A DNA stretch of 64,000 nucleotides from Sphingobium sp. CR2-8. Its GTDB lineage: Bacteria > Pseudomonadota > Alphaproteobacteria > Sphingomonadales > Sphingomonadaceae. The notes below the pieces were generated by a model. The model was given only the letters and a program-made list of their open reading frames with translations, did no database searches and was not told the DNA's origin. Positions 29,735 to 42,740 of this stretch are shown here, one piece after another; position 1 is the stretch's first letter; every line of letters starts with the position of its first letter. The stretch spans positions 1,862,501 through 1,926,500 of the forward strand of contig NZ_JAYKZY010000002.1 in assembly GCF_035818615.1 (NCBI RefSeq), written 5' to 3'. Both the position numbers and the translations under genes were made by a program.

Positions 29735-29798
29735 TTCCCCGGCGAAGGCCGGGGTCCGGTTGATGCGTTGGAACTGGACCCCGGCCTTCGCCGGGGAA
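29735..29798 (+). repeat. Inverted palindromic repeat pair (family 2)
   Basis: Two identical 23-base arms in opposite orientation (29735-29757 and 29776-29798) around an 18-base spacer. Each arm is itself a hairpin with core CCCCGGCGAAGGCCGGGG. The core differs only by a compensated base pair from CCCCAGCGAAGGCTGGGG in the repeats that flank the GIY-YIG gene at 42099-42483. Confidence 0.92.
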
Positions 29799-29827
29799 TC
29801 ATATGTTCAGCTTTTCACGATCTAATC

Positions 29828-37946: not shown

Positions 37947-38118
37947 GAAGAGGAAAACTGCCTGCCTGTGAAGCGCGCCAAAAGACATGACGCGGGGTTG
38001 TCGGTGCCTGTAGCATTTGCGCGACGGATGCCAAGCTGCCATGCGCATGCCGCGCGACGGGCCGTCCGATAAACGGCGACGTGATGAACGCCGTGCGACA
38101 GATGGAAGGAAGCAGACC

Positions 38119-38790
38119 ATGATCCCCCGCGAATATCTGGGTTCGGCGCAGGTGCCGGGCGGGCAGGAACTGAAACTCTATCGGCGCGGCAACGACCATA
38201 TGATCGTGCTGGACCGCAACGAGTTGATGAGCAGCCGGATGAGCGGGTCCGAAAAGCAGCTGGCGTTGATGACGATAGAGCGGCTGCACGGGCGCAAGGC
38301 CCCGCATCTGTTGATCGGTGGTTACGGCATGGGCTTTACCCTGCGCGCGGCGCTGGGCGTGCTGGATGGATCGGCGCGCGTCACCGTCGCCGAACTGGTG
38401 CCGGAGATCATCGCGTGGGCGCGGGGACCAATGGTGGATTTGATGGCCGGATGCCTGGACGATCCGCGCGTCGAGCTGGTCATAGACGATGTCGTGCCGT
38501 TGATCGCTGCGGGACGGGCGACCTATGACGCGATCCTGCTGGACGTCGACAATGGTCCGGACGGACTGACCGCCGCCGCCAACGACCGGCTCTATTCGGC
38601 TAGCGGGCTGGCAGTGGCCAAGACGGCGCTGAAGCCCGGCGGCATATTGGCGGTCTGGTCGGCCGGATCGGACGACGTCTTTGCCCGCCGCCTGCGCAGC
38701 AGCGGGTTCGATGTCGATGAGGTCGTAGTGAAGGCGCGCGACAATGGCAAGGGGCCGCGCCACGTCATCTGGTTTGCGCGGAAGCGCTGA
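38119..38790 (+). CDS. Spermidine synthase-like methyltransferase-fold protein
   Basis: A 223-residue Rossmann-fold protein. The nucleotide-binding glycine motif is LLIGGYGMGFTLRAAL, with a following acidic end (VTVAELVPEII) and LLDVDNGPDGL, as in spermidine synthase-like proteins. It lacks the N-terminal beta domain of true spermidine synthases, so the polyamine activity is unproven. ATG at 38119 with GAAGGAAG upstream. Confidence 0.8.
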   Translation: MIPREYLGSAQVPGGQELKLYRRGNDHMIVLDRNELMSSRMSGSEKQLALMTIERLHGRKAPHLLIGGYGMGFTLRAALGVLDGSARVTVAELVPEIIAWARGPMVDLMAGCLDDPRVELVIDDVVPLIAAGRATYDAILLDVDNGPDGLTAAANDRLYSASGLAVAKTALKPGGILAVWSAGSDDVFARRLRSSGFDVDEVVVKARDNGKGPRHVIWFARKR

Positions 38791-39510: not shown

Positions 39511-40701
39511 TCACGACGCCGATCTCCCGGTTGCGGTTACGAAGGGCGGCGGGGCGCGCGGTTGATATCGACGTTTGAGTATCTCGATGATGATCATTTG
39601 GCCGCCGCAGCACGGGCATGGCGGTCGGGTATCTGTCGGCTCGACGGACATGTCGGCGGTGGCAGGTGGCGCGATCGCGAGCAACTGGCGGGCGCGTTCG
39701 AGGTTGCCCTTGCGCGTGCCGCTGGCGAGCAGACCATAGTGGCGGATGCGGTGGAACCCGCGCGGCAAAGCATGTAGCAGGAAGCGGCGGATGAACTCGT
39801 CGGGGCTGAGCGTCATGACCTGCTGACGCTCGGTGCCGCTGCGGCGATAATCCTTGTAGCGGAACGTGACGCCCGCCTCGTCGAAGCCGATGAGGCGACT
39901 GCTCGAGATGGCGACGCGGTGGGTGTAGCGCGCTAGATAGGCGAGCACCGCCTCGGGCCCGGCAAACGGCGGCTTGGCATAGACCACCCAGCGTTTTTTT
40001 CGCACCGGCGACAGGTGACGTAGGAACGCGCGGCGTTCGGCGAGAGGTGCCATGCTGCCATAGAAGCCAAGCCGACCGGCCTGATGGAGCGCGATCAACC
40101 GCGTCAGGAACAGGCGACGGAACAGCGCGCCGAGCACCCGCACGGGTAGGAGGAACGCCGGTCGCGCGGAGACCCAGCGCTCTGCGTCAAGCGAGATACC
40201 GCCGCCGGGTACGATCATGTGGATGTGCGGATGATGGGTGAGCGCGGAGCCCCAGCTGTGCAGCACGGCGGTGATGCCAATCCGCGCACCGAGATGCTTC
40301 GGGTCGGCGGCGATGATCTGCATCGTCTCGGACGCGGCCTTGAACAGCAGATCGTAGACCAGCGCCTTGTTCTGGAACGCGATGGTGCCGATCTCGGCTG
40401 GCAGCGTGAACACGACATGGAAGTACCCGACCGGCAACAGGTCGGCCTCGCGCTCGGCCAACCAGATGCGCGCGGCCGCACCCTGGCACTTTGGGCAGTG
40501 CCGGTTACGACAGCTGTTATAGGCGATCCGCCAATGGCCGCAGTCGTTGCAGGCCTCGACATGACCACCCATCGCATCGGTGCGGCATTGCTCGACCGCC
40601 GACATGATCTTGAGCTGGTGCAGGCTCAGATGCCCGGCGTGCGCCGCGCGATACGCAGGGCCTGCCGCCCGGAAGATGTCGGCGACCTCGATGGCGGGCA
40701 T
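39511..40701 (-). CDS. IS91 family transposase
   Basis: A 396-residue rolling-circle transposase. A zinc-finger region has C51/C54 and C64/C69/C72 (CNDCGHW...CRNRHCPKC). The HUH motif is HHPHIHMIV (H157, H159, H161) and the catalytic tyrosine region is YLARYTHRVAIS. A second CPCC cluster is near the C-terminus. All are intact, so it could be active. Confidence 0.93.
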   Translation of the reverse strand: MPAIEVADIFRAAGPAYRAAHAGHLSLHQLKIMSAVEQCRTDAMGGHVEACNDCGHWRIAYNSCRNRHCPKCQGAAARIWLAEREADLLPVGYFHVVFTLPAEIGTIAFQNKALVYDLLFKAASETMQIIAADPKHLGARIGITAVLHSWGSALTHHPHIHMIVPGGGISLDAERWVSARPAFLLPVRVLGALFRRLFLTRLIALHQAGRLGFYGSMAPLAERRAFLRHLSPVRKKRWVVYAKPPFAGPEAVLAYLARYTHRVAISSSRLIGFDEAGVTFRYKDYRRSGTERQQVMTLSPDEFIRRFLLHALPRGFHRIRHYGLLASGTRKGNLERARQLLAIAPPATADMSVEPTDTRPPCPCCGGQMIIIEILKRRYQPRAPPPFVTATGRSAS

Positions 40702-40707
40702 CGGCCC

Positions 40708-41610
40708 TCAACCGTCGGGCGTTCCCCCGCCAGGCAGCAGTAGCCGGTCCAGCGGACTGGTCACCGCGCGCATCGTCTTGGTCGCCACCTGCGTGTAAAA
40801 GGCGGTGGTGTTGAGCTTGGCATGGCCGAGCAGCGCCTGGATGACGCGGATATCGACGCCGTCCTCGAGCAGATGCGTGGCGAAGCTGTGCCGCAAGGTG
40901 TGCGGCCCGACGCGCTTGGTGATGTCGGCCGCTTCGGCTGCCTCGACGACGACCCGGTACAGCTGCCGTGTGCTGATCGGCACCATTGCGCTTTGCCCCG
41001 GAAAGAGCCAGCCATCGGGGTACAACACGCCCTGCTGTCGCCCGGCGCGCCACCAGTCGCGCAACAGCACGAGCAGACCTTCGGGCAGCATGGCGTTGCG
41101 GTATCGTCCGCCCTTGCCCTGCTCGATGCGGAGCAGCATGCGCTCGCTGTCGATGTCGCGGACCTTGAGATGCGACACCTCGGCGACGCGCAGGCCTGAG
41201 CCATAGGCGACTGACAAGGCGGCCTGATGCTTCAGGCACGTGGTTGCTTCGAGCAGCCGCTTCATCTCCTCAAGCGTCAAGACCACCGGGATCTTGCGGG
41301 CATGCGCGGTTCGGACCAGCTTGCGCGCGAGGTCGGGCCGGTCGAGCGTGTGCGTGAAGAAGAACCGCAGCGCCGCGACGATGCTGTTCATCGTCGGGGC
41401 GGGCACGCCAGCATCCTGCTGCTCGATCTGGAACTGGCGAAGATCCTCTGCCGTCGCGGTATGCGGCGAGCGCCCCAGCCACGTTGCGAACCGCCCGACG
41501 TCGCGGATATAGTTGCGCTGCGTCTCGCGTGAAAACCGGCGCATGGTCATGTCGTCGATCAGCCGCTGACGCAGCGGGCTGGCAGCAATAACGGGTATCA
41601 GGTCGTTCAT
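40708..41610 (-). CDS. Tyrosine recombinase of the IS91-type element
   Basis: A 300-residue XerC/D-like integrase. The N-terminal SAM-like domain has the segment RRFSRETQRNYIRDVGRF. The catalytic set is visible: SGLRVAEV, HTLRHSFATHLL, LLGHAKLNTT and the nucleophile in AFYTQV. It lies immediately before the transposase gene. Confidence 0.92.
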   Translation of the reverse strand: MNDLIPVIAASPLRQRLIDDMTMRRFSRETQRNYIRDVGRFATWLGRSPHTATAEDLRQFQIEQQDAGVPAPTMNSIVAALRFFFTHTLDRPDLARKLVRTAHARKIPVVLTLEEMKRLLEATTCLKHQAALSVAYGSGLRVAEVSHLKVRDIDSERMLLRIEQGKGGRYRNAMLPEGLLVLLRDWWRAGRQQGVLYPDGWLFPGQSAMVPISTRQLYRVVVEAAEAADITKRVGPHTLRHSFATHLLEDGVDIRVIQALLGHAKLNTTAFYTQVATKTMRAVTSPLDRLLLPGGGTPDG

Positions 41611-41832: not shown

Positions 41833-42042
41833 ATGACTTTTTCCCTTTTCTGCGTGTTGGCACTCACGTTCTTTGCGGGACAGTTTGTAGCGTGGAGAAT
41901 TTTCCGCAGTCGCGCGGGAACCTACAAAAGCGCATTGAAGTGGTCAGCCATTGGCGGCTTTGCAGGATGGCTCACTATGATCGCTACTTTTCTTTTGATT
42001 GGCGATCTGAGCAATTGGCTCGGTTTCTCACTCGGTAGATGA
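41833..42042 (+). CDS. Small two-helix membrane protein, uncertain
   Basis: A 69-residue open frame with two hydrophobic segments (about residues 2-20 and 39-56) split by a basic loop (RIFRSRAGTYKSALK), a layout typical of real small membrane proteins. Codon use is less GC-biased than the neighbours, and I see no Shine-Dalgarno sequence. Lies between the IS91-type element and the GIY-YIG unit. No known family recognised. Confidence 0.45.
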   Translation: MTFSLFCVLALTFFAGQFVAWRIFRSRAGTYKSALKWSAIGGFAGWLTMIATFLLIGDLSNWLGFSLGR

Positions 42043-42098
42043 CGACCAGAAGTCGCCTCTAGAATATGCTGTGCGATGACTTGGAAGCGGCCATTCCC

Positions 42099-42135
42099 TT
42101 TATCGTCACCCCAGCGAAGGCTGGGGTCTCAGGCG
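42099..42135 (+). repeat. Left 37-bp inverted repeat arm (family 2)
   Basis: Perfect inverse match to 42447-42483; the internal hairpin core is CCCCAGC-GAAG-GCTGGGG. Confidence 0.95.
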
Positions 42136-42426
42136 TCAGAAGATAACGTATGAAATATCGCGCCAATCTGGATTGCCTTCTTCCATAAGCCGGATTTTCC
42201 ATTCGCGTTTCCAGGCTTTGAGCGCCTTCTCCCGGGCGATGGCGAGCCTGATGTCTTCATGTGGCTCGACCAGCACAAGGCGGGTCAACCCGTATTTCTT
42301 GCAAAAGGCGGAGCCGGTGCCGTTTCGATGTTGTTCGGCGCGCACAACGATGTCGGCTGTGACGCCGATATAAAGAACGCCTCTCGGCTTGTTTGTCATG
42401 ATGTAGGTGTAGCCGCCTTGCGTCAT
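42136..42426 (-). CDS. GIY-YIG domain nuclease
   Basis: A 96-residue single-domain GIY-YIG protein of the UvrC-like/YhbQ type. The signature halves are GYTYIM (residues 5-10) and VLYIGVT (17-23). Other catalytic-type residues are R29, H33 and E66 (REKALKAW), and the C-terminal GNPDW motif is present, so it looks active. There is no extra DNA-binding domain. It is enclosed between two exact inverted repeats, unlike ordinary housekeeping genes. DNA cleavage is expected from the family; its target is unknown. Confidence 0.92.
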   Translation of the reverse strand: MTQGGYTYIMTNKPRGVLYIGVTADIVVRAEQHRNGTGSAFCKKYGLTRLVLVEPHEDIRLAIAREKALKAWKREWKIRLMEEGNPDWRDISYVIF

Positions 42427-42446
42427 ATTCCATGGTATCGCACCGC

Positions 42447-42483
42447 CGCCTGAGACCCCAGCCTTCGCTGGGGTGACGATAAA
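42447..42483 (-). repeat. Right 37-bp inverted repeat arm (family 2)
   Basis: Exact inverse copy of 42099-42135, 20 bases upstream of the GIY-YIG start codon; it could overlap the promoter of that gene. Confidence 0.95.
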
Positions 42484-42651
42484 TCTATGTCAGCTATGCG
42501 GAAATTGCATCCGTAAACCGCCTAGCTGCTTCCCACCCCTTCAGGCCATCGACAATAGCGCTTCGGCATTAGGCTGCTGTGCAGTTTTGGGCGGGAAAGC
42601 AATCGAGGCGAGAGGATGGTTCGCCGCTCGCTTCGCTCGCACCCACCCCAA

Positions 42652-42673
42652 CCCCTCCCTTGGAAGGGAGGGG
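42652..42673 (+). repeat. Perfect 10-bp hairpin CCCCTCCCTT/AAGGGAGGGG
   Basis: A 10-bp stem with a two-base loop, followed on the plus strand by CTTTTG. It sits in the gene-free stretch between the GIY-YIG unit and dnaE2. It could terminate plus-strand transcription, but the motif is also a common dispersed repeat type, related to the CTCTCCC palindromes at 23224-23418. Confidence 0.6.
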
Positions 42674-42740
42674 CTTTTGTTGTGTCCGCCCATTTCCACT
42701 ATTCCCCCATGCGCCGGGAGGACGGTCATCCCGGCTTCGT

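Follow-up and report, generated by a model that had tools for sequence, protein, structure and literature searches.

The subject of this study is a small GIY-YIG nuclease gene and the inverted repeats that enclose it in a stretch of 64,000 nucleotides from Sphingobium sp. CR2-8 (hereafter the window). A first-pass annotation of this DNA had proposed that gene and repeats form a mobile unit, analogous to the pairing of repetitive extragenic palindromes (REPs) with REP-associated tyrosine transposases (RAYTs). The gene is an intergenic open reading frame (ORF) on the minus strand (42136-42426), encoding a single-domain protein of 96 amino acids whose only Pfam match at E ≤ 0.001 is PF01541 (GIY-YIG; E 6.4e-12, residues 5-77); at this threshold the search returned no second domain, be it a NUMOD-like DNA-binding module or a RING finger. 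The arms on either side (42099-42135 and 42447-42483) are 37 nt each, 100% complementary and 311 nt apart, with the stop codon adjoining one of them and the ATG 20 nt from the other, just as the first-pass annotation had it.

Gene, arms and flanks

The arm on the 3' side of the gene (42099-42135, plus strand) is a REP of the CGTC-tagged kind, with the foot CGTC at 42104-42107, a stem formed by 42108-42115 and 42120-42127, a loop at 42116-42119 and a tail pointing inward. The arm on the 5' side (42447-42483, minus strand) is its exact inverse copy, with the foot at 42475-42478 on the minus strand. One arm folded alone reaches -9.9 kcal/mol (z -3.8 against shuffles), which bears out the earlier description of the arms as hairpins. 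In the DNA fold of 42099-42135 the CGTC foot is not free and pairs with the tail GGCG, a feature reminiscent of the foot-guide pairing in IS200/IS605 elements. The 18-nt arm core has four matches in the window at up to three mismatches, where 0.14 would be expected; in 100 shuffles the number four was never reached. An intron or structured-RNA setting was rejected, as 41900-42700 held no Rfam match at the gathering score.

Between the 5'-side arm and the start codon lies a spacer of 20 nt (42427-42446, minus strand), which is poorly conserved. Outside the arms, pairwise homology within the genome, in converted coordinates, delimits two outer flanks: one on the 3' side of the gene (42043-42098), common to the nearest paralogues and ending near GACCAGAAGTCGCC, and one on the 5' side (42484-42538), common to the nearest paralogues except copy L007 and ending near GCTTCCCACCC.

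Copies in the window's own genome

The genome contains ten PF01541 matches, five of which stand between inverted core copies that are spaced almost alike; two of these five genes have an internal stop. A sixth, decayed unit (C2:1231720-1232070) was located via its arms. The four paralogues and the decayed unit align pairwise over 430-499 bp while their outer neighbourhoods differ, meaning that the shared sequence extends up to about 55-65 bp past the arms (less for L007). The unit is thus larger than the 385 bp first assigned to it, with homology between paralogues running from about 42043 to 42538. Among the other five matches, two (L002 and L003; arm scores 56 and 65) lie within other inverted palindromes, which ruled out the remaining GIY-YIG genes of the genome as arm-free controls; the three without arms are L001 (25), the UvrC-like L008 (24) and L010 (18).

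With up to one mismatch allowed, the genome contains 157 instances of a degenerate form of the 18-nt core and none of its backward-read control. The REP of the window's arms (class A) has 30 copies here and up to 77 across genus genomes, and the places listed include many close pairs of a plus followed by a minus copy.

Association of arms and gene across bacteria

Homologous loci were scored by the best inverted repeat between the 170 bp flanking the gene left and right, and a score of ≥30 counted as positive. Three sets were used: a genus set of 78 loci, of which 60 were hand-picked for diversity among the matches listed and 18 came from L050-L069 (L057 and L062 were left out as contig-cut, and L070-L079 as repeats of L100-L109); a phylum set of 30 loci, including one copy from the window's own genome and counting five contig-cut loci as misses; and a named-genome set consisting of the best 80 of 581 relatives, six of which were dropped for short flanks to leave 74. 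Controls were windows at the same loci offset by 700-1150 bp, as well as 177 mechanically chosen ORFs from the window, three 20-kb stretches and L084-L099, from which seven GIY-like ORFs had been set aside (two of these, with mechanical start codons, scored 15 and 17).

An inverted hairpin pair surrounds the gene at 143 of the 182 GIY-YIG loci. The controls reach the threshold in 5 of 912 cases for the shifted windows and in 1 of 177 for the other ORFs. The first-pass annotation had regarded unrelated flanks around homologues as fatal to a mobile unit, and this outcome is excluded by the 143 loci. By set, arms were found at 73/78 genus loci (45-100% protein identity), 19/30 phylum loci and 51/74 named loci, while the shifted windows gave 1/148, 3/223 and 1/541, respectively. 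Most genus arms are no more than tens of bases away from the gene. A looser rule raises the named set to 55/74, and the loci with arms under this scoring include, among others, Rhodanobacter, Xanthomonas, Pseudoxanthomonas, Kaistia, Nitrospira, Ectothiorhodospira, Planctomycetes and Omnitrophus. Records from Novosphingobium aromaticivorans, Sinorhizobium meliloti, Sphingobium sp., Aeromonas caviae and Neisseria gonorrhoeae score 42-63, and a Planktothrix record remains under the threshold with 28. In the even phylum search, the subfamily alignment matched in 133 of 398 genomes. As far as comparison of sequences can establish it, small single-domain GIY-YIG genes have a specific association with CGTC REPs in inverted pairs.

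A second GIY-YIG clade (L002 type; 20/299 genomes) is, by a plain count of loci, flanked by inverted palindromes at 21 of 27 (L336, L337-L362), many of them of the CCTGAG..TCGAAGG type (CCTGAGCTTGTCGAAGG / CCTGAGG..CCTCGAAGGA).

Hairpin type of the arms

CGTC-tagged REPs were defined by Di Nocera, De Gregorio and Rocco in 2013 (PMC3733652). They have a CGTC foot, a stem of 8 or 9 bp, a loop of 4 or 5 nt, A-T at the first two stem positions and a CCA tail, and occur mostly as inverted dimers in high copy number. They are mainly alphaproteobacterial (all orders, including sphingomonads) and also comprise the Neisseria dRS3 and Rickettsia RPE-4/6 repeats (PMC3733652).

The 143 positive loci supply 286 arms, of which 263 agree with a tagged hairpin, a count that depends on the choice of [CT][GA]T[CG] as the required foot, and 240 have a [CT]GTC foot directly before the hairpin. 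Among the fitted arms, stem and loop measure 8/4 in 193, as in the window, and 8/5 in 32; the first stem pair is A-T in 206, while the second is C-G in the window's arms and the class A arms of that type. The commonest tails are of the CCA type (CCAG in 74 arms, CCAT in 32), and 56 arms carry the CTCA of the window's class. At 107 of the 125 loci with both arms fitted, the feet face outward on both sides. Altogether 51 different stems were found, and left and right stems differ at 58 of these 125 loci; in most of the 30 listed cases the differences are paired changes that keep the stem (for example ATGCCAGC/GCTGGCAT vs ATCCCAGC/GCTGGGAT). Most arms fit the CGTC-tagged REPs of the 2013 description.

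Occupied, empty and gene-less sites

Units of one genome occupy different, unrelated sites. At the window's own site, beside an ORF identified by eye as dnaE2-like, none of the 15 loci compared from relatives (L277-L291, 1.5 kb flank) has the unit. Two units of genome G079 have unit-free counterparts, measuring 490 bp against 55 bp in G014 and 496 bp against 57 bp in G015, and these differences again exceed the 385 bp of the first estimate. The first of the G079 sites takes several forms: it holds a unit in G015, a unit with only the right side the same in G034, a gene-less pair of another class (by eye) in G081, and a gene-less class A pair in the window's genome (L312, C2 near 604000), where an arm, the spacer and part of the left flank are kept and an element of a second repeat class (class B) is nested inside the arm pair. 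In the gene-less L032 and L015, the last 27 bp of the gene are matched next to a full arm, so that both look like deletion derivatives. Further, three complete arm-gene-arm units of another subfamily (subfamily 2) stand in tandem at L127 (G077:C1:659272-661875) with a period of 467 bp.

No target-site duplication could be resolved in the two pairs of empty and occupied sites, whose boundaries are too diverged and whose empty members hold 55 and 57 bp of other sequence. Ends resembling GGGTGG- and GGTCG- are present at some empty sites and hence may belong to the target and not to the element. Evidently, then, units lie at unrelated sites, and both gene-less derivatives and unit-free sites exist. 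Arms fixed by descent with no empty sites, which had also been seen as fatal to a mobile unit, are excluded by copies at different sites within a genome and the unit-free sites in relatives, and the proposal of a mobile GIY-YIG/REP unit analogous to REP-RAYT gains support.

The gene-less inverted pair at 29737-29796 of the window (arms at 29737 and 29779) consists of a class B repeat (CCCCGGCGAAGGCCGGGG). It had first been taken for the same core as that of the unit, which was mistaken: the cores are related and differ at 2 of 18 positions, and the foot, tail and outer ends are those of the second repeat class (by eye). The class B doublets of the genome (L013, L014, L016, L018-L020, L031, L033 and window 29735-29800) resemble, by eye, a family of miniature inverted-repeat transposable elements of about 130 bp, and several have long outer flanks with TATACCA/TGGTATA-like ends. 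Arms resembling those of class B also surround a decayed GIY gene at C2:1130396.

Beside the unit, 39511-41610 of the window contains a transposase-like and a tyrosine-recombinase-like ORF, both named by eye without a family search. In six relatives (by eye), the counterpart of the ORF at 38017-38790 directly adjoins the dnaE2-like ORF, so the whole stretch between them is extra in the window.

Kinship of enzyme and arms

Similarity between arms follows similarity between proteins (Mantel r 0.81, with 0 of 2000 permutations as high; 74 of the 78 genus loci). In bins of 75 bp, the correlation is 0.81/0.83 next to the gene and drops to r 0.31-0.38 beyond 75 bp. It continues to exceed the permutations there, with no more than 2-3% of locus pairs alignable, and we presume that this residual correlation comes from orthologous-site pairs. 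The arms thus follow the gene far more than the neighbourhood does. For pairs from the same genome with a protein similarity below 0.7, arm similarity is below 0.5 in 25 of 29 and 0.59-0.81 in the other four.

Conservation was compared among 17 class A units drawn from 24, with broken, truncated and identical copies left out. Identity is 92% and 98.5% in the arms, 92% at codon positions 1-2 and 66% at third positions, falling to 69% in the spacer and 57-63% in the outer flanks. For 117 pairs, the median ratio of nonsynonymous to synonymous substitution rates (dN/dS) is 0.12, pointing to purifying selection on the GIY-YIG gene; these are the pairs with dS >0.05 among 120 from 16 copies, selected with the same exclusions. 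Inside single genomes, the Nei-Gojobori values lie between 0.12 and 0.42. With arms as conserved as codon positions 1-2 and a low dN/dS, the enzyme and the arms are both kept by selection, or else the arms are kept by exchange between copies. Gene and arms are hence conserved where their surroundings are not, and by these comparisons the arm sequence goes with the protein subfamily.

In structure searches Slx1 is among the best matches of the protein, and 1zg2 ranks first by profile. Asn 85 is near-invariant in 41 family members and may correspond to the C-terminal Asn of the UvrC type, which orthodox Slx1 lacks.

Interpretation

We consider it probable, at roughly 0.7, that CGTC REPs have their dedicated enzymes in small GIY-YIG nucleases of the Slx1-like kind, which would thereby be a counterpart of RAYTs with unrelated chemistry. 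The window would then hold one copy of a mobile unit of about 0.5 kb, composed of an outer flank, a CGTC REP, the GIY-YIG gene, an inverted CGTC REP and a further outer flank. The protein would recognise its cognate hairpin once this is extruded, in single-stranded or cruciform form, as expected of an Slx1-like structure-specific nuclease, and may cut each arm on its outer side, in the CGTC foot or close to it. Such cleavage could promote the excision or copying of the DNA between the inverted arms, which would be the enzyme's own gene in an autonomous unit and a short spacer in a gene-less REP pair. For integration, break repair using the dispersed REPs as homology is one possibility.

The first-pass annotation had suggested testing whether the number of solo repeat pairs in a genome follows the nuclease. 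The presence of class A and subfamily 2 genes was assigned by hand in 94 genus genomes from the listed identity and E-value, repeat counts were likewise transcribed by hand, and the comparisons are uncorrected for shared descent. For the window's subfamily the link is clear: class A REPs beyond two per gene have a median of 17 in the 43 genomes with a class A gene vs 5 in the 51 without (p 1.6e-6), and all 19 genomes that have no exact class A REP also have no class A gene. No link was detected between class A REP number and the subfamily 2 gene (p 0.62). Several observations weigh against a strict dependence. The link between subfamily 2 REPs and the subfamily 2 gene is weak (p 0.025), and these REPs also differ, unspecifically, by the class A gene (p 0.003). 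In genome G006, 52 exact subfamily 2 REPs were counted, yet at E 1e-30 it gave no GIY match of subfamily 2. A further 16 genomes, for class A, hold at least ten class A REPs with no class A gene. Enzyme loss with surviving repeats would explain such gene-less, REP-rich genomes. As a side observation, G006 carries five Y1_Tnp matches.

The best-surviving alternative, which we nevertheless hold to be unlikely, is a homing-like gene whose nuclease cuts gene-less REP sites and which is then copied in by break repair via its arms, the REPs serving as both target and homology. GIY-YIG is a classic homing-nuclease fold, and G026 has four contigs that break off in one identical 438-bp core whose outer flanks diverge. 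The latter pattern may, however, be an assembly effect, and since all four cores lie at contig ends they were not relied on as proof of recent movement either. Moreover, the three gene-less pairs at L032, L015 and L312 look like derivatives of the unit and not like its precursors; L312 in particular was dropped as a pre-existing homing target because parts of the unit are retained there. The two empty sites are also without a CGTC pair (by eye), and the protein has no further domain.

Less probable still is a housekeeping role in the host, in which an Slx1-like nuclease processes REP hairpins or cruciforms, the arms are terminators or autoregulatory hairpins, and the units are immobile. Structure-specific Slx1 nucleases among the best structural matches and purifying selection on the gene would agree with such a role, and large REP-dimer hairpins are said in PMC3733652 to stall replication. 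Immobile units are hard to reconcile with the several copies in unrelated places, the array of units in tandem, the pseudogenes and the unit-free sites, with flanks that are rarely shared past the arms, or with an arm class that tracks the subfamily.

Very little speaks for a RAYT (Y1 transposase) encoded at another place in the genome as the mobiliser of the arms, which would then be mere passengers. A Y1_Tnp match does occur in 23 of the 94 genus genomes, but the other 71 have none, and the single one in the window's genome has an internal stop. REP number shows no link to Y1_Tnp presence in these 94 genomes (p 0.25 for class A, and 0.21). The 2013 authors, too, describe CGTC REPs as elements that "apparently lack a dedicated transposase" and report no tyrosine transposase gene flanked by them (PMC3733652). 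REPs are indeed abundant in these genomes. That they are common enough between genes for any small intergenic gene to appear flanked by chance is the least credible account, contradicted by both sets of controls, by arms that go with the protein subfamily and by the closeness of genus arms to the gene, even if the Neisseria gonorrhoeae locus, where the arms stand 82 and 116 bp away from the matched segment of the gene and the DNA is rich in repeats, could be such a case.

Should small GIY-YIG nucleases indeed be the enzymes of CGTC REPs, the implications extend beyond this locus. The mobiliser of CGTC REPs was left open in 2013, and a GIY-YIG partner would make the question testable at the bench. 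Many proteins named merely "GIY-YIG nuclease family protein" would gain a function, the transposition-like spread of REPs would have evolved at least twice with unrelated catalytic chemistry, and the subfamily-matched hairpins would provide a ready series of enzymes and substrates for recognition studies. We lean slightly towards a wider proposal, in which a large unnamed class of transposable elements exists where stand-alone Slx1-like GIY-YIG nucleases excise and spread CGTC REPs, which would account for the origin of these repeats, and the second clade does likewise for CCTGAG..TCGAAGG palindromes. With a second clade having palindromes of its own, GIY-YIG nucleases may rival RAYTs as a general source of the palindromes between bacterial genes. 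No description of a pairing between GIY-YIG nucleases and bacterial REPs was found among the hits listed from the open-access literature, which was covered mostly by title and the opening of the abstract, and earlier work elsewhere is possible. The term GIY is absent from the text of PMC3733652 and from the passages covered of RepRanger 2025 (PMC12306157), and PMC9465073 names GIY-YIG together with RAYT or extragenic palindrome terms only in an unrelated gene list.

Comparison with known systems

The arms share with CGTC-tagged REPs the CGTC/TGTC foot, the 8-bp stem mostly opening with A-T, the loop of 4 or 5 nt, the short tail and the arrangement as inverted dimers. The window's class differs by having neither the CCA tail nor the second A-T position, and a dedicated GIY-YIG partner is proposed here, where the 2013 account found no associated transposase (PMC3733652).

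With the Slx1/UPF0213 group of stand-alone GIY-YIG nucleases (COG2827), the window's family has in common the minimal stand-alone GIY-YIG domain, and this group provides its best structural matches. The family differs in having no RING finger or Slx4, possibly in its near-invariant C-terminal Asn, and in being multi-copy and tied to REPs. Orthodox Slx1 has a C-terminal RING finger (PMC1564403). Unlike GIY-YIG homing endonucleases of the I-TevI type, the window's gene is intergenic, with no intron found and no second domain, and is flanked by REPs.

The closest likeness in organisation is to the REP/REPIN-RAYT systems (TnpA-REP, REPtron). In both, a small nuclease gene stands between inverted palindromes that are also found as many gene-less copies, the repeat sequence follows the enzyme lineage, and a short conserved foot lies beside the hairpin (for the RAYT side, in part from PMC3733652). 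In place of an HUH/Y1 tyrosine transposase the unit has a 96-residue GIY-YIG protein, its foot reads CGTC where RAYT REPs have GTAG, and the flanks past the arms belong to the GIY-YIG unit. The GIY-YIG unit would work like a REPtron but, with no HUH enzyme and no GTAG, stands outside the REP-RAYT systems.
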